Of a DNA stretch of 59,451 nt, positions 5,921 through 52,972 are shown in pieces. Below the pieces are notes generated by a model that saw nothing but the letters and a program-made list of their open reading frames with translations, was not told where the DNA came from and searched no databases. The DNA lies in the IMG/VR virus record IMGVR_UViG_3300031281_000002, positions 1-59,451 of that record; one strand, given 5' to 3'. Each line of letters begins with the position of its first letter. Position 1 is the first letter of the stretch. Position numbers and translations under genes: made by a program. This DNA is from a virus.

Positions 5921-5921
5921 T

Positions 5922-6410: not shown

Positions 6411-6414
6411 TACA

Positions 6415-8142
6415 ATGGCAGCTGGTGATTATATAAGATCGATATGGCAAAATGGGCCAGGTGTTGGACATCCTCCAATCAATGAAGATAATTTAAATAA
6501 TATAGAAGAAAAGCTCGAAGAACTTGACGGATTATTAGCTAACACATTTAATTATAGATTTGAAGATTTGAAGAAATATTTCTGGATGAGAAATTGTAAA
6601 GATATAGCTAATTTTGAAGATGACACAGATTGGACAGGGGTAGGTTGTAATGTAGGTGCTGCAAGTGGTCCTAATGCAGGAAATGCAAGTACTGCATTTG
6701 CAGACTCGGATAATGTCGCCTCTACAATTTACATACATAATACTGTTCCAAGCATAAATTTAACAGAATTCAATGATGAAAAAGCTAGTACAACAGATGA
6801 TATAATTAGTTTTTCGGTTCATTTATTTGATTATACAAAGCTAACTAACATAACTGTAAAGCTAGGCGATGATAACGTAGATAATTATAGTTATACATGG
6901 AATGTAACAGAAGGTAAACAGGTTACATTTCAGGCTAAAAAATCAGATTTCGCAACAAATGGAGTACCTAGCGGCTGGAATGATATAACATATATTCATA
7001 TTCAATCGGATACAAAAGCTAATGCAAGTTTTTCATGGATTACTCCAATGGTTTTAACTATGTATAGAAATGACCCTGTAAGCGACGGAGATGGTCAAGC
7101 ATTCCAAATTTATTCAGGAAGTGCATGGAGTAATTTTTTTACTCAGGAAAACAATGCATGGAATTTACTTTTAGATCCTAAAATAAACGACCTAGGCATT
7201 CAAGCATTGGATGATTATAATGACTCAGAAATTTGGGATGGACTAAATGTAAAATCTGATGTAATAAGTTTTTTCTGGAAATCTATAATGCATAACTATT
7301 GTGCTTCTTATACTAATAATATGACCTGGTTTGTTGATGATGATAATTATGCTACAGCCTGGATTGATAATAATGATTTTACATTGTTAATTAATGAAGC
7401 TGGAGTACCTACGGATTACACTTTCACGCTGAATACATCTTTAGCACAAGGAGAAAGGCTTGAAATAACATTAGAAAAAAATGTAGATACAATTAGGGCA
7501 ACATTAGTAAAAGGTAATGAAAGAATTGCTATATTAGAACACGAAACAACTATAGATAGTGAGACAGAAGGAGATTTATACTTCGGGTTTGATGATTTTG
7601 GATTATGCTTTATCCCTGATTTTATTATAAGCAATGTAAACAATTTAGATTTAGATTCATGGGATAGACCTAAAGTTGTCATAAAACAAGCTGATGAGTC
7701 AACTAGCGCAGACACGACTTTGAATGATGATTCTGAATTATATGTATATTTACCACCAAACAGTATGTTTGAAATATTTATGTCTATAGATTATTATACA
7801 AATGCGAATGTAACTCCGGACATAAAAGTCGCTTGGAATTTAACAAATGTAGAAATGGTTACTTATCGAAAGTGTGTAGGACTTGATATTGGAGCAGCTA
7901 CATATTATGGTGATGTAAAAACTTATACAAGAGGTAGTGCAAACGTTATATCTTATGGGGGTTCTGATACAGCAGACGTATATCTACACGCAAATGAAAC
8001 AGCTATAGTTAAAACAAATACAACAGGTGGAATAGTAACGTTGCAATGGGCACAAAGTGCTTCTAATGCAAATGCAACAACAGTAAAAGCAGGTTCTTAC
8101 ATAAAAGCTACAAAATTAGATTTATTACAACAAAATAATTAA
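6415..8142 (+). CDS. Putative receptor-binding / tail fibre protein
   Basis: 575 aa, the largest protein after the hub and the last large tail gene. The N-terminus (GDYIRSIWQNGPGVGHPPINEDNLNNIEEKL) looks like the short helical attachment region of phage tail fibres. The rest is rich in Thr, Asn and aromatic residues and beta-strand patterns, as in carbohydrate-binding tail tips. Four bases separate it from the preceding gene. It is called receptor-binding from position and composition; no depolymerase motif was recognised. Confidence 0.6.
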   Translation: MAAGDYIRSIWQNGPGVGHPPINEDNLNNIEEKLEELDGLLANTFNYRFEDLKKYFWMRNCKDIANFEDDTDWTGVGCNVGAASGPNAGNASTAFADSDNVASTIYIHNTVPSINLTEFNDEKASTTDDIISFSVHLFDYTKLTNITVKLGDDNVDNYSYTWNVTEGKQVTFQAKKSDFATNGVPSGWNDITYIHIQSDTKANASFSWITPMVLTMYRNDPVSDGDGQAFQIYSGSAWSNFFTQENNAWNLLLDPKINDLGIQALDDYNDSEIWDGLNVKSDVISFFWKSIMHNYCASYTNNMTWFVDDDNYATAWIDNNDFTLLINEAGVPTDYTFTLNTSLAQGERLEITLEKNVDTIRATLVKGNERIAILEHETTIDSETEGDLYFGFDDFGLCFIPDFIISNVNNLDLDSWDRPKVVIKQADESTSADTTLNDDSELYVYLPPNSMFEIFMSIDYYTNANVTPDIKVAWNLTNVEMVTYRKCVGLDIGAATYYGDVKTYTRGSANVISYGGSDTADVYLHANETAIVKTNTTGGIVTLQWAQSASNANATTVKAGSYIKATKLDLLQQNN

Positions 8143-12423: not shown

Positions 12424-13176
12424 ATGAAAATGATTGAATTAGTAAATAATACTCCATTAACAAGTACAAAAGTAATTGAATTTTACACAGAAGTTAAACA
12501 TCAAAATATTTTACAGTTATTTAGAAGACACGAAGAAAGTATTAAAAAGTTTGGGGTTATCATGTTTGAAAAATGGAAACCAAAAAAAGGAAGCAGAGGA
12601 GGAAGACCTGAAACTTTTTATTATCTTAATGAAGAACAGTTTACTTTTTTTATAATGTTAATGGCTAATAGTGAAAAAGTTGTTAATTTAAAAATTGAAT
12701 TAAATAAACAATTTCACCAATTGAGAAAAGCATTATTGCAATCTGAGCTTAATAAACAAAATGAAGAATGGTTAGAATCAAGAAAAAATGGTAAACAAGC
12801 TAGAAAAGAATTAGTTGATGCAATTGAAAAATTAAGAAAAATTCACATAACTAACAAACCAGATTCTAATTATGCTAAAAATCCTAGAACAATGTATAGC
12901 AACTTTACAAGAATAATAGATAAATCATTATTTGATATTAAAGTTTCTTCTAAAAATAAAAGAGATCTAATGACCACAAAACAATTAAATAATTTAGGCG
13001 TTGCAGAAATTGCAATAGCTAAAATCATTTATAAAGCTATAGATAATAATAAAGATGCAAAAGAAACATATAAATTAATTCAGAATGAAATTGAACCTTA
13101 TGTAAAATTTTTAGGTGGTAAAACTCCTATAATAGATGTTTTACTTGGTACACAAATATCAATATTAGATAGCTAG
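12424..13176 (+). CDS. Rha-family phage regulatory protein
   Basis: 250 aa from ATG 12424, with GAGGTG as SD. The N-terminal domain (IELVNNTPLTSTKVIEFYTEVKH, then GRPETFYYLNEEQFTFFIML, then NLKIELNKQF) is the pRha DNA-binding domain of phage antirepressor/regulatory proteins. The C-terminal 130 residues are helical and unassigned. It probably modulates lysogeny-type or early gene expression; a second antirepressor (AntA type) is at 44097. Confidence 0.85.
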   Translation: MKMIELVNNTPLTSTKVIEFYTEVKHQNILQLFRRHEESIKKFGVIMFEKWKPKKGSRGGRPETFYYLNEEQFTFFIMLMANSEKVVNLKIELNKQFHQLRKALLQSELNKQNEEWLESRKNGKQARKELVDAIEKLRKIHITNKPDSNYAKNPRTMYSNFTRIIDKSLFDIKVSSKNKRDLMTTKQLNNLGVAEIAIAKIIYKAIDNNKDAKETYKLIQNEIEPYVKFLGGKTPIIDVLLGTQISILDS

Positions 13177-33270: not shown

Positions 33271-35607
33271 ATGTCACATATAGAATTAAGAGATATTGTA
33301 ACAAATATTACAGATTGGGATCATAAACTTGGTATAGCTCCAAGAACATTTGAACAATTTTATTTTTGGATAAATGAATTTTTTGGATATTACATACCTT
33401 ATTCTAATGAAAAACCGTGTGAAGGACATTCTTATCCTTTATCTGCAATGTGGGAAGCTTATGCCGAAATAACACCGATGGCTATATGGTATGCAAATAG
33501 AGCGGGTGGGAAAACATATGATTTATCTGTTTTATCATTTATGGAATCTATATTTAAAAAAAATTGCGGGATAAATATATTAGGTGGTTCATTAGACCAG
33601 GCACAAAAAGCAATATCGTATTTAACAGAATTTTGGGATTTTCCTAATGCACCAACACATTTATTAGTTGGAAATCAAGTATCTAAAAGAGGATATAAAT
33701 TAACTAATGGGTCATGGGTAAGAGCGTTAGCGGCGAGTTCTAAATCAGTAAGAGGAAGCCATCAACCTAAATTGCGAATTGACGAATGCTTGACAGGTGA
33801 CACATTAATAAAAACAACACATGGATATAAAAAAATAATAGAAATAAATAACAAAGATATAGTATATGGATGGAACGGTGTTAAAATAAAAAAATGTATG
33901 GTACAATATAATTGTTATATGGGTGAGAGAAAAACATATAAAATTTTTTTCTCTAACGGTAAATATATAAATTGTACTGAAAACCATAAAATTTTAACAA
34001 CGAAAGGATATAGAAATTTAAATGAAATCAGAAGGTGGAAATGTAAGGGTGAATCAATCTTTGTTATCGGTGAACGTAAAAAGTTGTTTAATGTGTGGAA
34101 AAAAATTAAATTTAAAAAGAAAATATACAACAGGATATTGCCAAGAATGTTATATAAAATTAAATTCTGTACCAAAAAAATATTGTCAAGATTGCAAAAA
34201 AGAAATAACAAAAAATTCAACGATATGCAGAAGTTGCTATGCAAAAAGAAGAAAAGCAAAGAAACCAAAATGTATAGAATGTGGAAAAGAATTGAGGCAT
34301 ATTGCAAAACGTTGCAAAAAATGCTATTTAAAACACCTTTCGAAAATAGGAATGGATTCAAGAATGGCAAAGGCAAGAGCGACAGCATTGAAGAAAAATC
34401 CAACAAAAGCAGAAATACAAGCATCAGAATTATTAGAATATTTAAAAATATCATATCAATCACAAGTACCATTTGGAAGATACATAGTAGATTTTTTATG
34501 CAAAGATTTAAATTTAATAATAGAGGTACATGGAGAATATTGGCACAACAGAGAAAAGACGATAAAAATAGACGAAAGAAAGAAAATATTTTTAGAAAAA
34601 GAAGGATACAAAGTTCTGGTATTAAAAACAACATTAATGCATTTATGGTTTTCAAAAATTATGAAGTTTATGAAATAGTAAATATAAAAGATGATAAAAT
34701 AAATAAAGTTTATGATTTGAAAATTAAAGGGCTTAAATCATTTTTAGCAAATGGAATAATAGTTCACAATTGCGATGAACTTGATAAAAATATATACTTA
34801 GCGGCTTTGGGGCAGCCAAAAACAATGAATGGAATTCCAGAAAATATAATTATATCATCAACATTGCATCAACCATTTGGTTTAATGAGTGAAATAGTTG
34901 AATCAAAAGATGATATAGGAGCAAAATTATTTAAATGGTGTGTTAAAGAAGTTCAAGAACCACACGGATATTGGAAAGAAGCAGAAATAAAATTAAAAAA
35001 AAGACAGATTACAAAAGCGATGTTCGATGCTGAATATTTATGCCTCCGTCCTAAAATCGGAGATACAATATTCGATTTTGAATCTGTAGATAGGTCCTAT
35101 AGAAGAGGAATTAAAGATAAATATAATAAAAAATTATATACAGAAGCAGGAATCGATTGGGGTTATGCGGTTACAGCAATGAGTATTATACAGGACACTA
35201 AAGAAATATTTACAAATCCTATTACTAAAACTTTTGAGTATATTGAATTGACAGATAGGTGTAGAGAAATAGCTGATTTATGTATAGAATATGATATAAA
35301 GATAATTTATTGTGATAGCAATCCAAAAGACAGTAATATTACATTAAAAAAGATACTTAAAGAAAAAAGATGCCAAACAGAATTGATTACAATAGCATTT
35401 AATAAATGGAAAGATGTTGGAATAAATGTGATAAGATTATTATTAGAAAAAAATAGGCTTAATATAACTGACAAAACAGCACAGGAAAAATGTAAAAAAT
35501 ATCATTATAAGAATCCTGAACAGGGTATTATTGCGAAAGAAGATGATCATATTCCAGATAGTTTAATTGCGTGGGGTAGTTCAAGGCATCATTTATTAGG
35601 AATATAA
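33271..35607 (+). CDS. terL: Terminase large subunit interrupted by an intein
   Basis: 778 aa precursor; removing a 328-aa intein (residues 173-500) leaves 450 aa, a normal size. ATPase: Walker A NRAGGKT (76-82) and Walker B RIDECDELD, which is split by the intein between E172 and C501. Nuclease domain: AGIDWGYAVTAMS, IIYCDSNPKDSN and EDDHIPDSLIAWG supply the RuvC-like acids. It packages DNA into the prohead. Insertion into the Walker B motif means the precursor cannot work until the intein splices out. Rightward neighbours are the type IV-B-like genes, then the portal. Confidence 0.95.
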   Translation: MSHIELRDIVTNITDWDHKLGIAPRTFEQFYFWINEFFGYYIPYSNEKPCEGHSYPLSAMWEAYAEITPMAIWYANRAGGKTYDLSVLSFMESIFKKNCGINILGGSLDQAQKAISYLTEFWDFPNAPTHLLVGNQVSKRGYKLTNGSWVRALAASSKSVRGSHQPKLRIDECLTGDTLIKTTHGYKKIIEINNKDIVYGWNGVKIKKCMVQYNCYMGERKTYKIFFSNGKYINCTENHKILTTKGYRNLNEIRRWKCKGESIFVIGERKKLFNVWKKIKFKKKIYNRILPRMLYKIKFCTKKILSRLQKRNNKKFNDMQKLLCKKKKSKETKMYRMWKRIEAYCKTLQKMLFKTPFENRNGFKNGKGKSDSIEEKSNKSRNTSIRIIRIFKNIISITSTIWKIHSRFFMQRFKFNNRGTWRILAQQRKDDKNRRKKENIFRKRRIQSSGIKNNINAFMVFKNYEVYEIVNIKDDKINKVYDLKIKGLKSFLANGIIVHNCDELDKNIYLAALGQPKTMNGIPENIIISSTLHQPFGLMSEIVESKDDIGAKLFKWCVKEVQEPHGYWKEAEIKLKKRQITKAMFDAEYLCLRPKIGDTIFDFESVDRSYRRGIKDKYNKKLYTEAGIDWGYAVTAMSIIQDTKEIFTNPITKTFEYIELTDRCREIADLCIEYDIKIIYCDSNPKDSNITLKKILKEKRCQTELITIAFNKWKDVGINVIRLLLEKNRLNITDKTAQEKCKKYHYKNPEQGIIAKEDDHIPDSLIAWGSSRHHLLGI
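33787..34770 (+). mobile_element. Intein in terL
   Basis: The product begins CLTGDTLIKTTHGYKKI (Cys1, block A), has TENHKILTTKGYRNL (block B with the H of T-x-x-H region) and ends KVYDLKIKGLKSFLANGIIV-HN before extein Cys (blocks F and G). N- and C-splicing parts cover about 90 and 40 residues. The roughly 190 residues between them are in-frame but look like nonsense protein (Lys, Asn, Ile-rich), because the real gene there is read in another frame. Confidence 0.92.
34022..34678 (+). CDS. Zinc-finger homing endonuclease nested out of frame in the intein
   Basis: Up to 218 aa, read +1 relative to terL. Three four-Cys modules (C22/25/40/43, C55/58/69/72, C84/87/98/101) resemble DNA-binding zinc fingers. 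Residues about 128-190 hold a Vsr/DUF559-like PD-(D/E)xK nuclease: KAEIQASELLEYL, FGRYIVDFLCKDL (D147), IIEVHGEYWH (E158, H160), LEKEGYKVLVLKT. The start is uncertain: ATG 34022, or ATG 34091 just before the first Cys pair. The stop overlaps the C-terminal splicing domain. It is probably the homing endonuclease that spreads the intein. Confidence 0.8.
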   Translation: MKSEGGNVRVNQSLLSVNVKSCLMCGKKLNLKRKYTTGYCQECYIKLNSVPKKYCQDCKKEITKNSTICRSCYAKRRKAKKPKCIECGKELRHIAKRCKKCYLKHLSKIGMDSRMAKARATALKKNPTKAEIQASELLEYLKISYQSQVPFGRYIVDFLCKDLNLIIEVHGEYWHNREKTIKIDERKKIFLEKEGYKVLVLKTTLMHLWFSKIMKFMK

Positions 35608-35619
35608 TTTGGAGGTTTT

Positions 35620-36306
35620 ATGACTAATACTGAAATTATAAGTAAACATTCAAATATAAATTTGAATGTAGATAAATCAAAAATTAAAAATACTATTTGC
35701 AAAATATGTGGAAAAGAAAAAGAATCAATAAAAGAAAAGGAGATCATATCTTCTAATTTTACAAATTATGATTTATGTAAATGTAAAGAAAGTTTATTTA
35801 TATGTGTTGATTGTGCGAAATGTATAAAAGATATTGAGCTAAGAAGAAATAATTTTATTGCTGATAAAAATAATTTATATTTATTCAAAAAGAATGATAT
35901 AGAAAAATATATTTTTAATATTGATAGATATATTAAAAATGATTTTGTTGCTGGAGTTACATATACATTTAAAAAACATAATTCATTTAAATGTAATGTT
36001 AATTCTGATTATAATAAATTTTATATACAGCAAGAGGATGATAAAATATTTTTTGATGTCAAAAAAGCTAAAAAAATATATGATATCTTAAATGATGCCT
36101 ATTTATATTTTACAAAGGATGAATTATTAACTGGTGAATATAAAGCAATTTCAGTAATGCAATATGGATTAACTTCATTTGATTTATTAGAAAATATTCT
36201 AAAAGATATTAGAAAAACAAATTTATTTAAATTTTTAATATATATATTAAATTCTGAAAAAAGAAATGAAATATTACAAGAAAGAAGGAAAGTAAATGGA
36301 AGATGA
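35620..36306 (+). CDS. csf1: Csf1-like protein (type IV CRISPR-Cas large-subunit analogue)
   Basis: 228 aa, GGAGG upstream, 12 bases after terL. Zinc-finger cysteines at 27, 30, 53, 55, 62, 65 and 68 frame SSNFTNYDL, a pattern resembling the N-terminal zinc finger of Csf1 (C-x2-C ... S-F-T-D ... C-x2-C). The rest is alpha/beta without known motifs. In type IV systems Csf1 is the Cas8-like subunit at the foot of the effector complex. It overlaps the next gene. The assignment rests on the finger pattern plus gene order; sequence identity to known Csf1 could not be tested here. Confidence 0.7.
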   Translation: MTNTEIISKHSNINLNVDKSKIKNTICKICGKEKESIKEKEIISSNFTNYDLCKCKESLFICVDCAKCIKDIELRRNNFIADKNNLYLFKKNDIEKYIFNIDRYIKNDFVAGVTYTFKKHNSFKCNVNSDYNKFYIQQEDDKIFFDVKKAKKIYDILNDAYLYFTKDELLTGEYKAISVMQYGLTSFDLLENILKDIRKTNLFKFLIYILNSEKRNEILQERRKVNGR

Positions 36307-36676
36307 AAAAATAAAAGATTTAGCAATTATATCATTGGTTGCTGTTTGGGATAAAATTGACTGGGATAAAATAAAACTTGAAAGAGCGTATAAAATATGG
36401 GATGAATTTTCAAACAAAGTAAGAGCATCAGCATTTACTACAAATAAATTTAATATATTCATAAATAAATTATGTAAAAAACTTGATATAGCTGCATTAT
36501 CAGACAGATGCCTTAATGAAATTATCGAAATGGATGATGATATAAAATATAAAATACTTGATTTGATTAGAAATGATTTACATTCAGTAATTTTAGCTAT
36601 GAGACTAAATATTGAGATTAGAAAACAAGAACGTGAAATAAGAAAAAATAAAGAAAGTGAAGTGAATACCATATGA
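36296..36676 (+). CDS. Cas11-like small subunit
   Basis: 126 aa, overlapping csf1 by 11 bases and csf2 by four. Predicted entirely helical (IKDLAIISLVAVWDKIDWDK, then NIFINKLCKKLDIAALSDRC), ending in a very charged helix. Type IV-B loci encode a small helical Cas11 between csf1 and csf2, the position seen here. The call is mainly positional. Confidence 0.6.
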   Translation: MEDEKIKDLAIISLVAVWDKIDWDKIKLERAYKIWDEFSNKVRASAFTTNKFNIFINKLCKKLDIAALSDRCLNEIIEMDDDIKYKILDLIRNDLHSVILAMRLNIEIRKQEREIRKNKESEVNTI

Positions 36677-37518
36677 AAATTGATTTAGAATTAAAATTAA
36701 AAAGTCCATTATGCCATTTCGGAGATGAAAGAATGGGAACTATGCAAGTTTTAAGAACTATGAAATTTTTATATGGAGATAAATATATTGATGTACCTGT
36801 ATATTCTGGAAATGCCATGAGAGGTATATTAAGAAGATATGCAATGAAACATTATATAGATATGTTAGAATTGCCTGATGGAATTTCAACAAAATTATTT
36901 TATATGTTATTTTCTGGTGGTGCAATTACATCAGGGTCAAGATATGAAAAAATAGAAGAAAAAAGAGAAATGAGAAAAAAGTGTCCACCACTTGCATTGT
37001 TTGGGACAGCAATTGGAGACCAGATAACAGAAGGTAAATTAAAATGTGGAATATTAAAACCAATATGCAAAGAATTAAATGATTATAATAATACCAAAAG
37101 CGATATATCTATATATGATATGCTTGAAGATATTTTTTATACAAGAAGAGATGATTTGAAAAGTCAAAGCAAAATAAAAGTAAAAAACAAAGAAATAAAA
37201 GTAAAAAAAGATGGGAAAGAAGATAAAAAGAAAGAAAATCCAGTTCAAATGAAATACGAAATTCAAGCTATATCAACAGGAAGTATTTTGGAAGGTAGAA
37301 TTATTATAGAGAATGAAAACGAAATTGAAAAAGCGTGTTTATTTTCTACATTAAATCAGTTAGATAAAATTCCATATATCGGCGGGAAATCAGCGACAGG
37401 ACACGGAGAAATCGAGCTAAATTATAGCAGAGAAGGATTTGATATCTATAATGAATATATTAAAAACAATAAAAATGATATTCTAGAATGGCTAATTAAA
37501 ACAGAAGGAATTTTATAA
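36673..37518 (+). CDS. csf2: Csf2-like Cas7 (RAMP) protein
   Basis: 281 aa. RAMP features: KSPLCHFGDE near the start, VPVYSGNAMRGILRR (46-55 region, as in Cas7/Csf2 GN-x-x-RG-x-x-R), SGGAITSGSRY (81-91), PPLALFGTAIGDQITEGKLK, and a C-terminal glycine-rich loop IGGKSATGHGE (236-246). Cas7 subunits form the helical backbone that holds the guide RNA. A Lys-rich insert at about 165-190 is unusual and may bind nucleic acid. Two bases separate it from the CysH-like gene. Confidence 0.78.
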   Translation: MKIDLELKLKSPLCHFGDERMGTMQVLRTMKFLYGDKYIDVPVYSGNAMRGILRRYAMKHYIDMLELPDGISTKLFYMLFSGGAITSGSRYEKIEEKREMRKKCPPLALFGTAIGDQITEGKLKCGILKPICKELNDYNNTKSDISIYDMLEDIFYTRRDDLKSQSKIKVKNKEIKVKKDGKEDKKKENPVQMKYEIQAISTGSILEGRIIIENENEIEKACLFSTLNQLDKIPYIGGKSATGHGEIELNYSREGFDIYNEYIKNNKNDILEWLIKTEGIL

Positions 37519-37519
37519 A

Positions 37520-38248
37520 ATGAATTTTGTTGAAAGAAAAATAAATAATTTTTATAGAATAATTGATAAAGCAATGAATAAATATAAAAAACATTATATT
37601 AGTTGCAGTTGGGGTAAGGATTCAATTTTAGTAGTACATTTGATAATATCAAGATATCCAGACACAACAATAATTTTTATGAATTCTGGATATGCTTTAT
37701 CAGATATATATAAATTTAGGGATTATTATTTGAAAGAATATAGAGTAAAAAATTATATAGAATTAAAATGTCCTCATGATTATGTTGAATTAAATTTAAA
37801 ATATGGGTTACCTTCGATTGACAGAAGTATTTCAGATCATGAAAAAGTTAAAAATATAATAAAAAAAGATGTAATTGATGAATGGGCAATAAAAAATAAT
37901 TATGATTGTTGTTTTTGGGGAATAAGAGCAGATGAAACAGCAGGTAGAAAAAAATTATTAAGAAAATATGGATTGTTATATAGAACTTCTGAAATAGCAA
38001 AATGTTCACCTATTGGATGGTGGGGAAATAATGATGTATGGAATATTATTGATTGTTTAAACATTCCATATTCTAAAATATATGATAAAGAACTTAAACC
38101 ATTTTTTACAAGAGATACAATAAAAAATGGTGGATATTTAACAACAGATAAAGCTAATAAAGGTAGGATAATTTGGTTAAAAAAATTTTATCCTACTGAT
38201 TATGAAAAATTATTTTCGAAATTTATTGAGGTAAAAAAATATGTTTGA
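37520..38248 (+). CDS. CysH-like PP-loop protein of the type IV-B locus
   Basis: 242 aa. PP-loop SCSWGKDS (28-35, a variant of SGGKDS), then TIIFMNSGYALSDIYKFRDY, ECPHDY-like LKCPHDYVEL, CCFWGIRADETAGRKKLL and CSPIGWWGNNDVWNII, i.e. the PAPS-reductase/adenine-hydrolase core. A cysH-like gene is the hallmark accessory gene of type IV-B CRISPR-Cas loci; its biochemical role there is unknown. Here it is inserted between csf2 and csf3 and overlaps csf3 by eight bases. It is distinct from the PP-loop protein at 26579. Confidence 0.85.
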   Translation: MNFVERKINNFYRIIDKAMNKYKKHYISCSWGKDSILVVHLIISRYPDTTIIFMNSGYALSDIYKFRDYYLKEYRVKNYIELKCPHDYVELNLKYGLPSIDRSISDHEKVKNIIKKDVIDEWAIKNNYDCCFWGIRADETAGRKKLLRKYGLLYRTSEIAKCSPIGWWGNNDVWNIIDCLNIPYSKIYDKELKPFFTRDTIKNGGYLTTDKANKGRIIWLKKFYPTDYEKLFSKFIEVKKYV

Positions 38249-38930
38249 AAATTGTAAAATAACGTTTAGAATGAGCACTCCAATTGCAATTATGGGGTAT
38301 ATATTTTTAGATGCTTTAATATCGGCAGCATGTGCAAAGGAAATGCTTGGTGACGATTATTATAATGGGTTAATGAATCAAAAAGATTTAAATGGTGGGC
38401 ATGAATTTAATACTGATGATTTACCAATATATTTTAATAAGACATTAAATATTTATCATGCAAGTACTGGATTTGGTGATAATTTAGAATCTGTATGCAG
38501 TTGGTCGAAGAGATGGGATAATAAAAATGATAATATTGTAAAATTTAAAGGAAATACAAAAGGTAGAGTTGATATTGGTGCTGGATATTATAAAAATTAT
38601 CATATGCCAATTATAATTAAATCATATAAAAATATATATTTTTATGCAAATTGTGAAATCAAAAAAGTTGAATATCTTTTAAATAAATATATACATTTTA
38701 TTGGAAAAAAACCATCACAAGGCTATGGAGAAATAAAAGAAATAATTGTTAAGAAAATGAATAACGATTATAGCATATGGGATAAATCAAATAATAATAA
38801 ACATATATTAAGACGACCAATTATGGTTTCATCACAAAAGAATAAATTATCAAATAGGATAGAAAAAATATCTGTACGGCCACCATATTGGAGAACTGAT
38901 TATTTGGAATATTGTTATATGCCAGAATAA
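38241..38930 (+). CDS. csf3: Csf3-like Cas5 (RAMP) protein
   Basis: 229 aa. FRMSTPIAIMGYIFLDALIS near the start matches the T-P-I ... L-D-x-L motif of Csf3/Cas5, and KKPSQGYGEIKEI (156-168) is the RAMP glycine-rich loop. DLPIYFNKTLNIYHASTGF also fits the Csf3 layout. In type IV complexes it caps the 5' end of the guide. It is the last gene of the set; the portal gene follows after about 95 bases. No cas6, dinG or CRISPR array was found. Confidence 0.75.
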   Translation: MFENCKITFRMSTPIAIMGYIFLDALISAACAKEMLGDDYYNGLMNQKDLNGGHEFNTDDLPIYFNKTLNIYHASTGFGDNLESVCSWSKRWDNKNDNIVKFKGNTKGRVDIGAGYYKNYHMPIIIKSYKNIYFYANCEIKKVEYLLNKYIHFIGKKPSQGYGEIKEIIVKKMNNDYSIWDKSNNNKHILRRPIMVSSQKNKLSNRIEKISVRPPYWRTDYLEYCYMPE

Positions 38931-43863: not shown

Positions 43864-43905
43864 AGGAATGCAATAGTTTGAATATCAAAAAACTATTGCA
43901 TTCCT
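43864..43905 (+). terminator. Long hairpin terminator
   Basis: AGGAATGCAATAGTTT and its exact complement form a 16-bp stem with a 10-base loop shortly after the ParB-like stop. A short TTTAAAATT tract follows. Probably terminator or mRNA-stabilising. Confidence 0.65.
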
Positions 43906-43976
43906 TTAAAATTGCTTAAAGAAAATTTTAAAATAAGAACGACTATAAAATTAATTTATGATATAATATATTAAAA

Positions 43977-44074
43977 TTATATAGATTGCTTTGAACCCTA
44001 CCCAAAGCAATCTATATAAAATAATAAAAGAATCTTATTAATTTTAGGTAGGGACTTAAATTAATAAGATTCTT
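43977..44074 (+). ncRNA. Twin hairpins with complementary (kissing) loops
   Basis: Hairpin 1: a 17-bp perfect stem (43977-43993 with 44003-44019) with loop AACCCTACC. Hairpin 2: a 17-bp perfect stem (44028-44044 with 44058-44074) with loop TAGGTAGGGACTT. CCCTACC in loop 1 and GGTAGGG in loop 2 are exact 7-base complements. CTATATAAAATAA (44012-44024) can also pair with TTATTTTATATAG just before the SD of the next gene, competing with hairpin 1. Together this looks like a folded leader RNA or switch for the AntA gene. Confidence 0.7.
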
Positions 44075-44096
44075 ATTTTATATAGAGGTGATTTTT

Positions 44097-44843
44097 ATGA
44101 AAGAGATGATAAAAGTTAATATGAATAATATAAATAGACCAACTGTATTAGGAAGAGATTTACATAAATTCTTATCAATAAAAACAAGGTATGATATTTG
44201 GTTTGATAGAATGTTAGAATATGGATTTGAACAAGACAAAGATTACTATATTCATGATCAAAAATGTACGCGAATAGGTAAACAAATAAATGAAAAAAGA
44301 ACCATAATTAACCATCAATTAACTTTAAATATGGCTAAAGAAATCGGAATGGTTCAAAGAAATGATACTGGTAAAAAGATAAGAAATTATTTTATAAAAT
44401 GCGAAGACATGCTAAAAGATATAATAAAAAATAAAGAAATTAATAATAATTCTAATGAATGGAAGAAGCTTAGAGCTGAGTCGAAAAGTATTAGATTTGA
44501 AGAAACAAATGAAATACAAAGAATGGTTAAGTATGCTGAAGAAAGTGGATCTGAAAATGCTAATAATTATTACACTCATTTTAGTAAACTGGTTTGGGAT
44601 AATTTATTCTTAATTGAAAAAGGATTTGAAGATATTAAGAATAAAAAAGATATTTGCAATGATAGGCAATTAGCTACAGTAATTCAGGCTGAAAATATTA
44701 TAAGAAAAAGCATAAATGAAGGGCTTAAAAATGAAACTGAATATCATGAAATTTATTATAATACTAGAGATAAAATTAAATTATTAGCGAGTTTGGTAGA
44801 GATAACTAAGATACCTTATTATAGCCAAATTAGCATGATATAA
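44097..44843 (+). CDS. AntA-type antirepressor
   Basis: 248 aa from ATG 44097, SD GAGGTG. LGRDLHKFLSIKTRYDIWFD, YGFEQDKDYYIHDQ, NHQLTLNMAKEIGMVQRNDT and KKIRNYFIKCEDML match the AntA/AntB domain. The C-terminal half is helical and may bind a repressor. Its leader has the twin kissing hairpins, suggesting post-transcriptional control as known for some phage antirepressors. Confidence 0.85.
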   Translation: MKEMIKVNMNNINRPTVLGRDLHKFLSIKTRYDIWFDRMLEYGFEQDKDYYIHDQKCTRIGKQINEKRTIINHQLTLNMAKEIGMVQRNDTGKKIRNYFIKCEDMLKDIIKNKEINNNSNEWKKLRAESKSIRFEETNEIQRMVKYAEESGSENANNYYTHFSKLVWDNLFLIEKGFEDIKNKKDICNDRQLATVIQAENIIRKSINEGLKNETEYHEIYYNTRDKIKLLASLVEITKIPYYSQISMI

Positions 44844-45277: not shown

Positions 45278-46369
45278 ATGATATTAAATTTAAAAGATTG
45301 TGTTGGTTGTGGTGCTTGCTATAATGTTTGTGAATTTAATGCAATAAAAATGATATATGATGCTGAAGGTTTTGCATATCCAAAAATAAATATTGAAAAA
45401 TGTGTTAAATGCAATAAATGTTTAACGGTATGTCCTGTTATTAATAAGCCAGATATTAATAAAAAATTTAATACTTATGCTGGTTATGATAAAAATAAAA
45501 ATATAGTAAAAATGAGTTCATCAGGTGGACTTTTCAGAAGATTTTCAAAATATATATTAAACCAGGATGGAATTGTTTTTGGAGCGGGGTTCGATGAATT
45601 AAAATTAAAACATTTAGAAATTAATTCACTTGATAATTTATATAGAATATGTGGTTCTAAATATATTCAATCTGATATAGGAGACTCATATAAAAAAGTT
45701 AAAATCGCATTAAATAAAAATAAGAAAATATTATTTTCTGGTACGCCATGCCAGATATCAGGATTAAAAAGTTATTTAAAATATTTTGGCCTTTCTTATA
45801 ATTCAAATTTATTCACTATAGCAATTGTATGTCATGGTGTCCCGTCAACAAAGATTTTTAATGATTATATAAATTTATTACAAGATAAATACAATTCAAA
45901 AGTTAAAAATATTAATTTTAGGAATAAATTAAAAGGATGGCAAAATTATTATATAACTATTGAGTTTGATGATAGAAAGATAATACAAAAAGTTTCAAAA
46001 AATTCTTATATGATAGGATTTTTAAAAAATTATTACTTAAGAAAAACATGTTATAATTGCAAATTCAAAGAAACTATAAAAGATATAGATATTTTATTAG
46101 GTGATGCATGGGGAGTTAAAAATAATTATCCTGATATTTATAATAAAAATGGGACTTCTATTTTAATTGTAAATTCAAAGCAAGGAGAATATTTATATAA
46201 AAAAAATTTAAAGTATCTTAAATCGAAAAAAATAAATTATAATTTTGTAAAAAAATATAATTCGTGTATTTATAAATCAGTTAAAGGTATAATTAAAAGA
46301 AAAAATTTTTTTGAATCATATTTATCACAAGGATTTAAATATGTATATATAAAATTTATGAGAAGGTGA
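45278..46369 (+). CDS. FrhB-family iron-sulfur protein (Coenzyme F420 hydrogenase beta-subunit-like)
   Basis: 363 aa. Two ferredoxin-type clusters at the N-terminus (CVGCGACYNVC and CVKCNKCLTVC), then SSSGGLFRRFSKYIL, FSGTPCQISGLKSYL and CHGVPSTKIFNDY, and GDAWGVKNNYPD near the end. This family is regularly encoded next to polysaccharide pyruvyl transferases in surface-glycan clusters, as here. The exact redox reaction is not known for these members. Confidence 0.85.
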   Translation: MILNLKDCVGCGACYNVCEFNAIKMIYDAEGFAYPKINIEKCVKCNKCLTVCPVINKPDINKKFNTYAGYDKNKNIVKMSSSGGLFRRFSKYILNQDGIVFGAGFDELKLKHLEINSLDNLYRICGSKYIQSDIGDSYKKVKIALNKNKKILFSGTPCQISGLKSYLKYFGLSYNSNLFTIAIVCHGVPSTKIFNDYINLLQDKYNSKVKNINFRNKLKGWQNYYITIEFDDRKIIQKVSKNSYMIGFLKNYYLRKTCYNCKFKETIKDIDILLGDAWGVKNNYPDIYNKNGTSILIVNSKQGEYLYKKNLKYLKSKKINYNFVKKYNSCIYKSVKGIIKRKNFFESYLSQGFKYVYIKFMRR

Positions 46370-46373
46370 TATT

Positions 46374-47378
46374 TTGAAAGTTGCAATTATTACATTATTC
46401 GGATATTTTAATTACGGGAACAGACTGCAAAATTTAGCTATGCAAGAAATTTTAAAAAGTTTAGATTGCGAAGTTGAAACATTAAAATTCTTTCCAACAA
46501 GTATTCCAAAAAAACTTGATAAGTTATCAATATCAAAACGTAAAAATATAAAAAAATGGTCAATAGAAAATATAAAAGAAAGATATATTCCAATTGAAAA
46601 GAAAAAAACAATAATAAATGAATATGATTATTTTTGTATTGGGAGCGACCAAATTTTTAATCCAAAAGCAAAATTAATATTTAAATTAAATTTTTTGGAT
46701 TTTATACCAGCAAATAAAAAATTTACTTTTGCTGCAAGTTTTGGGAGAACGATAATAAAAAAAGATATTATTAATAAATACAAAAATGGTCTAAAAAGTT
46801 TTGAGTCTAAACGATTATCTATAAGAGAAAATGAAGGCAAAGAATTAATTAAAAAATTAGTTAATAAAAATTGTTATGTACATTTAGATCCTGTTCTGGT
46901 TTTCAATAAATGGAATGATTTTATAGATAAAAAAATCATTGTTGCACCTAAAAAATATTTATTAACATATTTTTTAGGAGAAATACCAGAACAAAAAAGA
47001 TACTTTATTGAAAATATAGCAAAATGGTGTAATTTAGAAATAATTGAATTGAATAATATAAAATTCAGAAGAATGTATACAATAAACCCATCTGAGTTTT
47101 TATTTTTAATTAATAAAGCATCATTGATTTTTACAAATTCATATCACGGTGTTCTATTTTCAATTGTGTTTAAAAAACAATTTGTTTTTATTGAAACAAG
47201 GCCTAAAATGAAATCAAGACTAAATACATTATTTTCTACATTTGACTTAAATGATAGAAAGTTTGAAAATATAGGTATGGATGATTTATTTAATATAAAT
47301 TATTCTAAATTAAAACCAATTTTAGATGATGGTATAAATAATGCTTTAAATTATTTATATTTGAATATAAATAATTAA
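46374..47378 (+). CDS. Polysaccharide pyruvyl transferase family protein
   Basis: 334 aa from TTG with AAGGTG upstream. IITLFGYFNYGNRLQNLAMQ, YFCIGSDQIFNP, SIRENEGKELIK, HLDPVLVF and FTNSYHGVLFSIVFKKQFVF are the pattern of the CsaB/WcaK pyruvyl-transferase fold (GT-B-like). It transfers pyruvate from PEP to a sugar hydroxyl in cell-wall or capsule polymers; for FrhB-linked members the true substrate may differ. Confidence 0.85.
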   Translation: MKVAIITLFGYFNYGNRLQNLAMQEILKSLDCEVETLKFFPTSIPKKLDKLSISKRKNIKKWSIENIKERYIPIEKKKTIINEYDYFCIGSDQIFNPKAKLIFKLNFLDFIPANKKFTFAASFGRTIIKKDIINKYKNGLKSFESKRLSIRENEGKELIKKLVNKNCYVHLDPVLVFNKWNDFIDKKIIVAPKKYLLTYFLGEIPEQKRYFIENIAKWCNLEIIELNNIKFRRMYTINPSEFLFLINKASLIFTNSYHGVLFSIVFKKQFVFIETRPKMKSRLNTLFSTFDLNDRKFENIGMDDLFNINYSKLKPILDDGINNALNYLYLNINN

Positions 47379-47398
47379 ATAGAATAAAGGTGTGTTTT

Positions 47399-48100
47399 AT
47401 GGATATTGGTATAGTAACTTCTTTTTATAATAATTATGATAAATTCTTAAATCAGTGGGTAAATTCGATATGTAAATTACAAGAAAAACCGACTATAGTC
47501 ACAATTGTTCAAAGTGGTAAAAAATATAAACAACAAAATTTAGATAATGCAAGAGACATTTTAGAAAAGAATAATTTTAATTTTATAATTGTGAAAATTA
47601 AAAAACATAGATGCATGGGATTTGCTAGAAACTGGGCAGTAAAACATACAGATACAAAATGGATTATGTATCTAGATGTGGATGATACCATAAAGCCTGA
47701 TGCAATAACAAATTTAAAAAAATTTGAAGATAAAGCAGATGTTATTTGTGGAGGGCTTGAAATAAAATTAATAGGAAAGAAAAGAAATTTTGTTAAAAAT
47801 AAATTTTATTTAGGTACAAATAGAAGAAATATTTTAAAAGGGAAGCATATTTGTAGCTCACACTCAGTTTATAAAAGAAAATTATGGGAGAAATATAAAT
47901 ACCCATTAAACGATGAATTTTGTAATGGGATGATATGGCTAGGTTTTGCGAAATTAGGAGCAAGGTTTATTGGAATTAATAAAATATGTACAAGTTATCT
48001 AAGGAGGAAAAATGGACATTATTTTAGATATACTAAAAAAAATAAAAAGAAATGGGAAAAACAAAAAAAACAATTTTTAAGAAGGAAGGTATTAAAATGA
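47399..48100 (+). CDS. Family 2 glycosyltransferase
   Basis: 233 aa from ATG 47399. IGIVTSFYNNYDKFLNQWVN, GFARNWAVKH and MYLDVDDTIKPDAI give a GT-A fold with the D-x-D metal/nucleotide-sugar site (DVDD). It adds a sugar from a nucleotide-sugar donor. The end overlaps the next gene. Confidence 0.85.
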   Translation: MDIGIVTSFYNNYDKFLNQWVNSICKLQEKPTIVTIVQSGKKYKQQNLDNARDILEKNNFNFIIVKIKKHRCMGFARNWAVKHTDTKWIMYLDVDDTIKPDAITNLKKFEDKADVICGGLEIKLIGKKRNFVKNKFYLGTNRRNILKGKHICSSHSVYKRKLWEKYKYPLNDEFCNGMIWLGFAKLGARFIGINKICTSYLRRKNGHYFRYTKKNKKKWEKQKKQFLRRKVLK

Positions 48101-49056
48101 TTGAAAATTATGATAATTTATATTTTGGACAGCAACATATTGGCACAATAGACTTTTTTGGAAAGAATTATCATACTATTAAGGTTGATGATTTCCCACA
48201 TTATAAATATCTACATGGGAATATAGATATTTATAAAAAATATTTACACAATACATGGAAATATACTGAGAAATCTGAAAGAGATATTATGGTAGAAGAT
48301 AAAATAAAAAGTTTTGGAGATTTATTTAATGATATTGATAAAAATGGGATAAAAGAAAAAATAAAAATAGTAAGAAGGTTTGATGGTAAAGATATTATAT
48401 GTGGTGGAAATCATAGGGCAGCTATAGGATGCTTTTTGAATATTCCGATTCCATTTAATAGAATTAATATATTTGACAGAATAAAAGAATTAATTCAAAT
48501 AGAAGGCAAATTCGGGCTTAGAGGAACAACAAAGCCATATCACAGTATTTATAAATATGTTAATAATGAATTTGTTGAAATAATACAGGGCAGGCGGCGC
48601 GATTTATTAGAAAGAATTAATTTAATAGATAAAAAAGATATTGTAAATAAAAATATATTAGATATTGGCTGCAATATTGGTACAAGTAGCTTTTTGGCTG
48701 CATTCTTGGGTGCTAAAAAAGTAGTTGGTATAGATAATAATGTTGATATTTTAAATGCAGCAATAAGATTAAACACATTATTTGCATTACCATGCTATTT
48801 TAAAATTCTTAATTTAAACTTAAATAAGAATTTTAAATTCAATAAATATAACACTGCTTTTATATTTTCAGTTGATAAGCATATCAAAAATCATGATAAT
48901 CTTATTAAAATTATAAAAAATAATATAAAAATTGTTTATTTTGAAACACATGAAAATTCAGACATGCCACTTAAAATAAAAAAATGTTTTAATAAAATTA
49001 AACTAATTGGAACATATTCAAAACGTAAATTATATAAATGTATTGTTGAAAATTAA
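48097..49056 (+). CDS. SAM-dependent methyltransferase with an N-terminal ParB-like half
   Basis: 319 aa. Start at ATG 48097 (AAGGAAGG upstream); an in-frame ATG at 48052 is inside the previous gene. Residues about 105-125 (VRRFDGKDIICGGNHRAAIG) resemble a ParB-like G-x-H-R motif. Residues about 185-230 form the SAM motif I (NILDIGCNIGTSSFLAAFLG, then VVGIDNNVD). Probably methylates a sugar or glycerol-type group of the glycan. Confidence 0.75.
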   Translation: MIENYDNLYFGQQHIGTIDFFGKNYHTIKVDDFPHYKYLHGNIDIYKKYLHNTWKYTEKSERDIMVEDKIKSFGDLFNDIDKNGIKEKIKIVRRFDGKDIICGGNHRAAIGCFLNIPIPFNRINIFDRIKELIQIEGKFGLRGTTKPYHSIYKYVNNEFVEIIQGRRRDLLERINLIDKKDIVNKNILDIGCNIGTSSFLAAFLGAKKVVGIDNNVDILNAAIRLNTLFALPCYFKILNLNLNKNFKFNKYNTAFIFSVDKHIKNHDNLIKIIKNNIKIVYFETHENSDMPLKIKKCFNKIKLIGTYSKRKLYKCIVEN

Positions 49057-49073
49057 TTGGAAGGAATTATTAT

Positions 49074-49715
49074 ATGGTTAGAATTCCTAAAATTATTCAT
49101 ATTATATGGATTGGCAAAAGAAAATTTCCATATAAAAATAATTTAAATAGTTATAAAAAAAATAATCCAAAATGGAAGATTATTTTTTGGGATAATAAAA
49201 ATATACCAGATATATTTAATAGAAAAAGCTATCAAAAAATGAATAGTTATGCTGCTAAAGTTGACATTTTAAGACTAGAAATTTTATATAATTATGGTGG
49301 AATATATGTTGATGCTGATAGCAAATGTTTAAAATCTTTAGATATTCTTTTAGATGAATTAACTTGTTTTGGAATGACAGGAAATAATGGGAATATTGCA
49401 AATGGTACATTAGGATGTATACAGAAACATGATGCATTCAAAGAATTAGTTTTTGGATTAGATAGCCATATTGAAAAATTATCAAAATTAAAATTAAATA
49501 AAAAAAAGGGGATTAGAATATTTAATGTTGCTGGAACTGGATATATAACTAGGATACTTAGAAAATATGATGATTTTATACAAATAGACAAAGGATGTAA
49601 AAAGGGGAATAGGCGATATATTGGAACTTTTGAAGATAAAAAAGTATTAAAAAATGGATATATAGTACATTTTAATAAAAAAACATGGAAAAAAAAGAAA
49701 GGAATTATTTTGTGA
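49074..49715 (+). CDS. GT32-type glycosyltransferase (Gly_transf_sug)
   Basis: 213 aa. IPKIIHIIWIGKRKFPYKNN, WKIIFWDNKN, AAKVDILRLEILYNYGGIYV and DADSKCLKSLD match the GT32 family with the DxD motif. Members use nucleotide-sugars to extend capsular or surface glycans. A Lys-rich C-terminus may contact membrane or substrate. Confidence 0.88.
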   Translation: MVRIPKIIHIIWIGKRKFPYKNNLNSYKKNNPKWKIIFWDNKNIPDIFNRKSYQKMNSYAAKVDILRLEILYNYGGIYVDADSKCLKSLDILLDELTCFGMTGNNGNIANGTLGCIQKHDAFKELVFGLDSHIEKLSKLKLNKKKGIRIFNVAGTGYITRILRKYDDFIQIDKGCKKGNRRYIGTFEDKKVLKNGYIVHFNKKTWKKKKGIIL

Positions 49716-49727
49716 AAGGAAAATAAT

Positions 49728-50450
49728 ATGATAGATGTAATTTATTTAGCTGGTGGAAAAGGAATAAGAGCTGGACTTGGTTACCCTAAGCAATTCGCAA
49801 GAATTGGAGGAAAGCCAATAATTATATATGGATTGGAAACACTTAATAAGATAAATGAAATAGGTAATATAATTATACCTTGTGAAGCTGATTATGTTAA
49901 ACACATAATAAAATTTGCGAAGACATATAATATAACAAAAAATATTATACCAGTTCCACCAGGAGAGACGAGACAAAAATCTGTATATAATGGACTAAAT
50001 TTTGATGGTTGTGAGTTTAAGTTAACTGAATATGTTTTAATTTGCGAAGCTGTTAGACCTTTTATGTCATATGATTCAGTTAAAACAGTACTTGCATGTA
50101 ATAATGATATTATTACTCCAATTAGTAAATTAGTTTCTACTGTGATAAATTTCAATCAAAAAGATTATATATATTCGCTTGATAGAGATTTTTGCGGAGA
50201 AGTTCAGATGCCACAAAAATACAAAACTGATATTTTATTTGAATGTCATAAAATTGCTATTGATATGGAGCATACTTTTACAGATGATTTAGCTCTTGTA
50301 ATAAATTGTATTATGTTTACAAAATATAAGAAGATTGAAGATATAAATATAATAAAAGGAGAAGAACAAAACATAAAAATAACTACTCCTTTAGATTTGC
50401 ATATTGCCGAGGCTATATTGAAATATAAGGCCGGTGATAAGATTGAATAA
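49728..50450 (+). CDS. IspD/TarI-family cytidylyltransferase
   Basis: 240 aa. VIYLAGGKGIRAGLGYPKQF has the G-G-x-G-x-R nucleotide motif, then PVPPGETRQKSVYNGL and LICEAVRPFM and FTDDLALV. TarI/Acs1-type enzymes join ribitol 5-phosphate to CTP. The next gene is an SDR, and in Haemophilus Acs1/Bcs1 these two activities are fused and make CDP-ribitol from ribulose 5-phosphate. CDP-ribitol is therefore the favoured product, but other CDP-polyols are possible. Confidence 0.8.
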   Translation: MIDVIYLAGGKGIRAGLGYPKQFARIGGKPIIIYGLETLNKINEIGNIIIPCEADYVKHIIKFAKTYNITKNIIPVPPGETRQKSVYNGLNFDGCEFKLTEYVLICEAVRPFMSYDSVKTVLACNNDIITPISKLVSTVINFNQKDYIYSLDRDFCGEVQMPQKYKTDILFECHKIAIDMEHTFTDDLALVINCIMFTKYKKIEDINIIKGEEQNIKITTPLDLHIAEAILKYKAGDKIE

Positions 50451-51111
50451 AAAACATATTATAGTTACTGGAACATCAAGAGGAATAGGGCATGAAATAA
50501 CAAAAAAATGGTTTGATTCATCTAAAAATAATGAAACTAGAATATCATTTACTATATCAAGAAATGAAAATAATGATATTACTAATTATGAAAATATGAA
50601 AAGTTTTATTTATGAGTGTTTTAGCGATAAAAATTATAATTATAAAGAAAAACCCATTGCATTAATCAATAATGCTGGGATTATAGAGCTTGGAAATATA
50701 TTAGAATTATCTACAGAATCTTGGAGAAAACAATTTGATGTAAATATAAATGGTATGTTCAATTGTTCAAAAGTATATGCTGAAGCATGTATAAAAAATA
50801 AAGTAAAAGGTAAAATTATAAATATTTGTTCGACTGCTGGATTAGGTGCTAGACCTGGTTATTCTGCTTATGCTGCAAGCAAGGCGGCTGCAATAAATTT
50901 TAGTTTAAGTTTATCTAAAGAATTAAAAGAATATGGAATAAAAGTATATTGTGTTTGTCCTGGTGCTGTTAATACGGACATGAGGCATTATATAAATCCT
51001 GATGATGATTTTGAAAATATGATGAAACCTTATGATGTAGCTAATTTTGTAATTGATTTGATTGAAGATGGAGAGTATTTAGATGGACAAATATTAACAA
51101 TAAAGAAATAA
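50443..51111 (+). CDS. Short-chain dehydrogenase/reductase, probable polyol-phosphate step
   Basis: 222 aa if started at TTG 50443; GTG 50434 would add three residues. IIVTGTSRGIGHEITKKWF (TGxxxGIG), LINNAGIIELG (NNAG), and YSAYAASKAAAINFSLSLSK (Y-x3-K) define a classical SDR. It overlaps the cytidylyltransferase gene by eight bases. By analogy with the SDR half of Acs1/Bcs1 it would reduce ribulose 5-phosphate to ribitol 5-phosphate with NADPH. Confidence 0.82.
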   Translation: MNKKHIIVTGTSRGIGHEITKKWFDSSKNNETRISFTISRNENNDITNYENMKSFIYECFSDKNYNYKEKPIALINNAGIIELGNILELSTESWRKQFDVNINGMFNCSKVYAEACIKNKVKGKIINICSTAGLGARPGYSAYAASKAAAINFSLSLSKELKEYGIKVYCVCPGAVNTDMRHYINPDDDFENMMKPYDVANFVIDLIEDGEYLDGQILTIKK

Positions 51112-51132
51112 GTTAAGGAGAATAGTTTTAAA

Positions 51133-52260
51133 ATGATGGTTAAAGTTTTCAATAAAACACATTATATTATTAATGCTGGGGGGTTTAAATTTAATCCTTT
51201 TGAAGAAATCGAAATAAATATAGGTGAATATGATAAGGAATTTATAGAAATAAGAAGCAATAATGGTTTAAGAGTTGGCAAAAACAATAACAAAGAATAC
51301 AAAAGAAGACATGGATTAGTAAAAGGGCATGAAATAAATTTTTGTTATGATGAAATGAGTCAGCATGCTGGAAGTGCTTATAAATATGCAATTCAAGCAT
51401 TAGCAGATCCAATTATTAAGCACTTAAATAAAATTGATACTGGTTATGTCCATAGGCCTTTAACAAATATAAATTGTAGATTCTTTAGTTCAAAAAGAAT
51501 AAATGAGCATGGGAAAAGTCCGGTAGGCCCATATGATGTATTTTTCTCGCATGGAATTGGAGATAAAAATTACTGGATAGGTCCTAATATAAAAGATTAT
51601 AAATATGCTTTTGTTCCTGGACCAGCATGGGAAAAAAGAATGAGAAAAACAGGATATAAAGGAGAAATTTTTGTTTGTGGGTATACAAAACTTGATCCAC
51701 TTTTAAATGGAGAATTAGAATTTAAAAAGCATGATAAGCCTTATATTGTTTGGGCTCCTACGCATGGCTATGCAAGCAAGCACAAAGGAAGGTCATCATA
51801 TCCACAATGTTTAAGTTTAATAAAAGAAATACCAGATTGCTATGAAACAAAGTTAGCATTGCATCCAACATCAAAACTACATAACAAAGAAAAACACAAA
51901 CCAACATTAATAGAATTATTAGAAGCTGATGTAATAATTGCTGATGCTGGAAGTACATTATACGAAGCATGGATATTAGGAAAGCCTGTAATTTTTCCTG
52001 ACTGGATATGTGCTGCTGATACCATGAATCATTTTGAAAAAGATAAAGATAACTTTGAGTATCAAATTTACTCAAAGAAAATAGGCTATCATGCAAAAGA
52101 CATGAAACATATGAATGAGTTAATTGAGATAGCCTTAAGAGATGGAATGAGAGATGAAGAGAAGGAATTTATTGAAAGTATTTATCCGACGGAACTAAGA
52201 GGTAAAGCAGGGGAAACCGCTGCAAAGTATTTGAAACAATTATTGAAAAGATTAGGCTAA
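51133..52260 (+). CDS. CDP-glycerol/CDP-ribitol polyol-phosphotransferase with a phage-type N-terminal domain
   Basis: 375 aa. The C-terminal 290 residues fit the TagB/TagF/TarL fold: VFFSHGIGDKNYWIGPNIKD, YAFVPGPAWEKRM, YIVWAPTHGYASKHKGRSSY, KLALHPTSKLHN and DVIIADAGSTLYEAWILGKP. It would transfer ribitol- or glycerol-phosphate from the CDP donor onto a glycan. Residues 1-55 (KVFNKTHYIINAGGFKFNPF, then EEIEINIGEYDKEFIEI) look like the small beta-domain of phage head proteins such as 55688-55978, an unusual fusion. Start 51133 or 51136. Confidence 0.8.
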   Translation: MMVKVFNKTHYIINAGGFKFNPFEEIEINIGEYDKEFIEIRSNNGLRVGKNNNKEYKRRHGLVKGHEINFCYDEMSQHAGSAYKYAIQALADPIIKHLNKIDTGYVHRPLTNINCRFFSSKRINEHGKSPVGPYDVFFSHGIGDKNYWIGPNIKDYKYAFVPGPAWEKRMRKTGYKGEIFVCGYTKLDPLLNGELEFKKHDKPYIVWAPTHGYASKHKGRSSYPQCLSLIKEIPDCYETKLALHPTSKLHNKEKHKPTLIELLEADVIIADAGSTLYEAWILGKPVIFPDWICAADTMNHFEKDKDNFEYQIYSKKIGYHAKDMKHMNELIEIALRDGMRDEEKEFIESIYPTELRGKAGETAAKYLKQLLKRLG

Positions 52261-52943
52261 TTGAATATAAATTTTATATGGGTTAGTTTATTATTTTTTT
52301 TTACAGTTTCAGCTATTATAAATTTAGATGTTTTTTCATTTATTTCATTGATAGCTGTTTTCAAAATATATCTATTTATTTCAGCATTGATATATTTATT
52401 TTCAATCTTGAAAAAATTTCTAAATGTATCAATAGGCATAGTATAATACTTTTGATTATCAAATTTACATGATAATTCATATAACCTTTGACTATATTTG
52501 CTTTTTAGTAAATTGAAATCATTAAGATTCAATTTGCTAAAATTTTGATAAATATTATTAATGTATTTAAAACATTCTTGATTAAATTTAAATATAGCAC
52601 AATCAAATTTCATATACTGAATATAATCGAAGATATATAATTTTACTACATCTATTCCATTTTTATCAATTAAAATAATATGATCAGGAATTGATTCTAT
52701 TAAATCTTGTATATCTAATTCAGTATATCTACTTTGGATAAATATTTTTTGTACCTCAGTATTCTCTAATTCTATTGTGTCTTCTATAATTTCAGAAAAT
52801 TCTAAATTATTTTGAAAGTAATTTATTTCTCTAAATTTATAAAGTAAATGATAAAATAATCTAAGTTGATTTATTGAATATTGTTTTTTTGATGTAATAA
52901 TATAATCATCGCATAAGAATATTTTATTTTTTTCTTTCTCCAT
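52257..52943 (-). CDS. Rep_3-family plasmid replication initiator
   Basis: 228 aa on the minus strand from ATG 52943. YIITSKKQYSINQLRLFYHL at the N-terminus, LKSKYSQRLYELSCKFDNQK, YYTMPIDTFRNFFKIENKYI and FIIAETVKKNNKLTHIKFIF at the C-terminus give the two winged-helix domains of the Rep_3/RepB family. Such initiators bind iterons and start theta replication of plasmids. Three iterons lie 170-240 bases upstream. It overlaps the convergent phosphotransferase gene by four bases. Confidence 0.88.
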   Translation of the reverse strand: MEKEKNKIFLCDDYIITSKKQYSINQLRLFYHLLYKFREINYFQNNLEFSEIIEDTIELENTEVQKIFIQSRYTELDIQDLIESIPDHIILIDKNGIDVVKLYIFDYIQYMKFDCAIFKFNQECFKYINNIYQNFSKLNLNDFNLLKSKYSQRLYELSCKFDNQKYYTMPIDTFRNFFKIENKYINAEINRYILKTAINEINEKTSKFIIAETVKKNNKLTHIKFIFN

Positions 52944-52972
52944 AATAATCACCTCAATACAATTATAATATA

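Follow-up and report, generated by a model that had tools for sequence, protein, structure and literature searches.

The window, that is, the whole stretch of DNA analysed here, is a virus record of 59,451 bases with a G+C content of about 27%. In the interval that separates a ParB-like DUF6551 protein gene from an AntA-domain antirepressor gene, it carries a leader with a predicted promoter, two long tandem hairpins (H1 and H2) whose loops are complementary to each other, a U-rich tract and a Shine-Dalgarno (SD) sequence (Table 1).

Table 1. The leader and its neighbours in the window.
Feature	Position	Strand	Remarks
ParB-like DUF6551 protein gene	ends 43846		Upstream neighbour of leader
Terminator-like inverted repeat	43864-43905		Between DUF6551 gene and leader promoter
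Extended -10 promoter element, TG-A-TATAAT (TGATATAAT)	43959..43967	+	Read in sequence; its end is 9 nt from H1
Predicted transcript start	~43974-43976		
Hairpin H1	43977..44019	+	17-bp perfect stem, 9-nt loop AACCCTACC (43994-44002)
Loop-1 contact strand, CCCTACC	43996..44002	+	Complement of 44047-44053; covarying helix
Linker H1-H2, 8 nt	44020..44027	+	Most variable region of the alignment
Hairpin H2	44028..44074	+	17-bp perfect stem, 13-nt loop TAGGTAGGGACTT (44045-44057)
Loop-2 contact strand, GGTAGGG	44047..44053	+	Sole other site of the 7-mer is loop 1
U-rich tract, terminator-like, at H2 3' base	44073..44084	+	T content across family
Third-pairing 5' arm (H1 3' arm)	44011..44024	+	Partner 44073-44086
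Shine-Dalgarno GAGGTG of antA	44085..44090	+	Read in sequence
AntA-domain antirepressor gene, cargo of this copy	44097..44843	+	Pfam PF08346, E 8e-21; start ATG 44097

Several other features of this phage may be recorded here. A type IV CRISPR effector set (Csf1, Cas11, Csf2, a CysH-like PAPS-reductase and Csf3; 35620-38930) lies between the terminase and portal genes, and its gene content suggests type IV-B. The large subunit of the terminase (33271-35607) contains an intein, inside which an ORF in another frame (34022-34678) codes for a DUF559 nuclease-like protein with zinc ribbons; this overlap is retained in the related phage L039 (terminase 4204-6645, ORF 5057-5716). A sugar/glycosyltransferase-type block (45278-52260; FrhB-like, IspD-like, short-chain dehydrogenase and others) is located within the structural module, and the phages L022 and L033 have a similar block in the corresponding position. 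A Rep_3-type replication initiator is encoded on the minus strand (52257-52952), a hint that this may be a phage-plasmid. At 12424-13173 there is a second regulatory gene, a pRha-type one, for which no tandem-hairpin leader was detected.

The two perfect 17-bp hairpins pointed out in the initial annotation are present, and the 7-base complementarity between their loops, also noted there, is exact. No further occurrence of the contact 7-mer or its complement exists in the whole window. The leader folds at -39.9 kcal/mol, compared with -17.1 ± 3.3 kcal/mol for dinucleotide shuffles (z = -6.8). Hairpins of at least 14 bp number five in the real window versus 0.025 per copy in 40 first-order Markov copies, none of which contains a tandem hairpin pair with complementary loops.

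With 20 further copies, the leader is represented by 21 distinct full elements, all from contigs of uncultured viruses. L022 was found by a 15-base loop/stem pattern and has the same leader as the window (94.7% identity over 151 bp, from the promoter to the start codon), beyond which the genes are unrelated. L007 was found among portal relatives scanned for tandem hairpins with matching loops, and a wider portal scan yielded L039, L042 and L052, which have stem and loop sequences unlike those of the window. A covariance model yielded L033 together with a cut copy in L036; DNA patterns yielded L060, L061, L062, L065, L066 and L068, and then L074, L075, L076 and L077. A model of the stems only, applied to 50 virus records, yielded L157, L159, L160, L164, L166 and L168. 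L179 is another phage bearing the L164 copy. The window-type loop pattern has true matches only in L022 and L033 (the same as L081).

Beyond these, no Rfam family matches the leader at the gathering score. When 84,980 cellular genomes were scanned with a pattern, 48 matches were obtained, none of them with a hairpin. The AntA protein query among viruses found no relatives; DNA similarity searches of phage and plasmid collections gave short antA matches only; alignment of the portal protein against genome contigs found no prophage; and among 299 genomes of one phylum there was a single weak partial portal match. Because the collection scans used fixed patterns, the real spread of the leader is probably wider than 21 elements. 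In the partial library that was searched, no description of such an element was found.

Thirteen elements were aligned for the analysis of covariation. Paired cells make up 94.6% in H1, 100% in H2 and 96.2% in the contact helix between the loops, and changes on both sides are seen at 10 of 17, 8 of 13 and 5 of 8 pairs, respectively. The covariation score of the whole structure is 0.538 (0.192 when shuffled), and that of the kissing helix is 0.647 (0.189 when shuffled, ≤ 0.074 in slid controls). Kinship among the sequences inflates such shuffle-based scores; less affected are the slid controls, the independent loop codes and the elements found blind.

As to the blind finds, L007, L039, L042 and L052 had been picked for matching loops, and L060-L068 came from a pattern that fixes part of the loops; L033, L074, L076, L077, L157, L159, L160, L164, L166 and L168 were found without any loop-match criterion. 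Loop complementarity is present in all ten of the latter, and several of their codes are absent from the model. In total there are 16 different loop-1 codes. Cognate loops match over a mean run of 7.4, nearly all being 7-8 bp (the run of 5 in L039 belongs to a contact of 8 bp that includes one G-U pair), while the longest of 240 non-cognate runs is 6, none reaching 7. The contact may change while a stem stays constant: L066 and L039 differ at 0 of 34 positions in the H1 stem and at 5 of 16 in the contact, and L061 and L062 at 0 of 26 in the H2 stem and 4 of 16 in the contact. Three phages (the records of L042, L052 and L075) have two full copies each, with differing codes and cross-pairing of at most 5 bases. 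Loss of the complementarity in close relatives had been named at the outset as a finding that would refute the proposed reading; instead, it is retained in the relatives through compensatory change. Taken together, the comparisons indicate that the loop-loop match is real and is maintained by selection. The variability of the loops was also considered as proof of immunity selection and was rejected as such, because the contact columns, with a difference of 0.36, vary only slightly more than the two stems (0.28 and 0.32).

Across the family, the helices contain 15 G-U pairs and 2 A-C pairs. Because the former far exceed the latter, the structure appears to be that of a sense RNA, to which the pairs point. 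The same count weighs against a DNA element, namely a cruciform, inverted repeats bound by a protein, or a site of recombination through which the downstream genes are exchanged. Exchange of genes beside a near-identical element is indeed seen (window versus L022; L062 versus L068), but the promoter, SD and orientation are fixed, and the far end of the cargo gene shows no second copy; such an element is considered extremely unlikely.

In 16 of the 21 elements, H1 is preceded at 7-11 nt by a -10 box with at least 5 of 6 matches, and several also have TTGACA at a spacing of 17-18 nt. In L166, TATCCT is accompanied by a perfect TTGACA, and there is no clear -10 box at that position in L052, L157, L160 and L164. 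Given the location of the box, transcription should therefore begin at H1. A start downstream of the hairpins, which the initial annotation held to be incompatible with its reading, is thus not what is predicted, either in the window or in most of its relatives.

The 3' base of H2 is rich in T, with a mean of 7.1 per 10 bases over the 21 elements; where H1 ends the figure is 2.6, and the surrounding DNA has 3.2. All members have the U-tract at H2 (at least 6 T of 10), and H1 lacks it. In L073 a lone H2 with the code GTCGGGAA and no H1 lies at approximately 7240-7290, directly after the stop codon of a gene, and in L160 the H2 is followed by a long T run, with no gene directly 3'; both of these H2 hairpins appear terminator-like. 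(The L073 phage has 38% G+C, and its other copy, L168, bears a different code.) An A-U-rich stem and a loop as large as that of H2 (13-18 nt), however, are unlike those of strong terminators, and a terminator scan of the window did not call H2. The U-tract could also partly reflect pairing with the A-rich 5' arm.

The same region bears on whether the leader is simply a stabilising 5' cap, in which the compact H1-H2 fold would shield the mRNA from 5'-dependent decay and leave the SD open, with no termination. H1 begins at, or a few nucleotides from, the predicted start, the SD is free in the best fold, and a benefit of this kind would extend to many different genes. Such a cap, however, leaves unexplained the U-tract that all members have at H2 and none at H1, and it gives no reason for the differing loop codes. 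It is regarded as unlikely.

A third pairing, between the 3' arm of H1 and the stretch before the SD, had been proposed in the initial annotation to compete with H1 and switch the leader between two folds. The pairing exists, although its register (Table 1) is displaced by 1-2 bases from that first given, and it comprises 14 bp. It is retained in L022 and, with a single compensating change, in L033; in L164 it extends over 13 bp. On these grounds a translational switch, in which the 5' arm of H1 and the pre-SD stretch would compete for the 3' arm of H1, might be envisaged. In the family as a whole, such pairings are barely longer than the non-cognate background (a mean of 8.35 over 20 elements versus 7.35 for mismatched elements; at least 8 bp in 8 of 20 elements versus 39% of non-cognate pairs), and the pairing was rejected as a family-wide feature. 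Moreover, the fold containing it is 4.4 kcal/mol worse in the window. The translational switch is thus very unlikely.

The leader is not tied to antA but precedes many unrelated genes. Directly after it are found AntA in the window, a NucS-like gene (NucS_C) in L022, a TnpB-like gene with a Cas12f1-like_TNB domain in L033, Dam methylases in L007/L066 and L062, N6_N4 methylases (N6_N4_Mtase) in L039 and L042, NUDIX in L052, pRha (Phage_pRha) in L074 and L164, ERCC4 nucleases in L159 and L166, DUF6948 in L077, and unknown proteins in L068 and L076. In L022, a remnant of the 3' end of antA is left further downstream of the NucS-like gene. L060, L061 and L065 have lost the cargo gene but kept the leader. 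Model R2 has no match in the relatives of 57-59 kb (the records of L005, L006 and L009, which are possibly incomplete). The leader appears to be an accessory element, because several of these related records are without a copy.

Persistence of the leader where the gene is lost, and the L160 copy with no gene directly after it, would be expected of an independent small RNA. A terminated H1-H2 RNA would then pair with other copies, as a dimer or chain, and its self-specific codes would make it a determinant of incompatibility or superinfection. The orthogonality of the codes, also between two copies in one phage, agrees with this, as does the fact that the only complement of each window loop is its partner loop. 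On the other hand, the SD and a gene follow at a fixed distance in most copies, no trans target is known, and some close relatives have no copy. Such an independent role is judged decidedly unlikely.

The compared sequences thus reveal a predicted promoter at H1, two hairpins, an evidently selected kissing helix of 7-8 bp, a U-tract and exchangeable cargo. To our knowledge, comparative proof of this kind is rare for structured phage leaders. We infer that H2 would be an intrinsic terminator, which would make the leader an attenuator. The preferred reading, to which a probability of about one half is assigned from the sequence comparison, is that of a modular attenuator leader for phage cargo (moron) genes, in which the contact between the loops of H1 and H2 would set the read-through at H2. 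Termination at H2 would yield a short RNA of about 100 nt, plus variable read-through into the cargo gene. The folded loop 1 would meet the loop-2 strand emerging from the polymerase, ahead of synthesis of the 3' arm of H2, and the contact would tune whether H2 closes in time. Alternatively, the finished short RNA might make the same contact in trans, in which case the gene would sense its own copy number. As each copy has its own loop code, copies sharing a cell would therefore not interfere.

The sequence allows contact in cis and in trans equally, and the former is slightly favoured because loop 1 is tight, whereas loop 2 is wide and has a free linker to either side. Loop 1 has 9 nt, almost all of them in the contact, and loop 2 has about 2-5 free bases per side. 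With the contact stacked on H1, H2 could fold back along H1, the two being joined by linkers of 8-20 nt; by a rough estimate of our own, this is geometrically possible. Against attenuation alone stands the persistence of the leader in the three copies that have lost their cargo, which attenuation does not need. A bolder version, in which each cargo gene would have a private self-matching loop pair and the terminated leader would act on its own kind without crosstalk, amounting to a new class of phage regulatory RNA, is tentative and on the whole doubtful. If true, it would represent a natural repertoire of mutually orthogonal RNA switches, spreading along with the phage genes that are exchanged. 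The leaders might serve as markers for cargo genes in phage genomes and as ready natural orthogonal RNA parts, and swapping and restoring the loops would be a direct route to how loop contacts steer transcription.

Among known systems, a leader bound by CsrA was considered and rejected because the GGA is not conserved: GGGA in the window loop is missing in L039, L076 and L159. The order of promoter, structured RNA, terminator-like hairpin and gene is that of type III toxin-antitoxin loci, and the leader loci follow it. They differ from these in that the leader has no tandem repeats and the downstream genes are not ToxN-like, no ToxN-like endoribonuclease being found among the downstream Pfam families (AntA, Phage_pRha, Dam, N6_N4_Mtase, NUDIX, NucS_C, ERCC4 and Cas12f1-like_TNB). 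The prohead RNA (pRNA) of phi29 is a phage RNA with two loops that match between molecules. It has a junction core, a packaging role and no cargo gene, whereas the leader is absent from several relatives; a pRNA-like packaging role is disfavoured, as the leader is not universal among the phage relatives.

Nearest in spirit is the C4 antisense RNA (RF01695; target c4-a1b1), in which antisense and target share one transcript. The likeness is that of a phage RNA tied to an antirepressor gene. C4, however, has three stems, with a' and b' loops, is excised by RNase P to about 77 nt and pairs with a ribosome-binding region. The present leader consists of two hairpins that contact each other through their loops, with a U-tract at H2, and in most copies the gene that follows is not an antirepressor. 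A fold of the C4 type, with an enclosing third stem, is not seen in the two separate covarying hairpins, and neither the window element nor L039 matches RF01695 at E up to 10. In the C4 RNAs of P1 and P7, the loops set the specificity of antirepressor control, and small loop differences lead to heteroimmunity (PMC5320573, PMC12197685, PMC2864571).

In pT181, attenuation of transcription by kissing loops is established, and orthogonal variants of it have been engineered (PMC3753616). The resemblance lies in a loop-loop contact that is proposed to decide termination before a gene and in the existence of orthogonal loop variants. In contrast to pT181, where the antisense RNA is separate, both loops are here on the same strand and in one leader, and the leader family looks like a natural orthogonal set of kissing loops encoded in cis.
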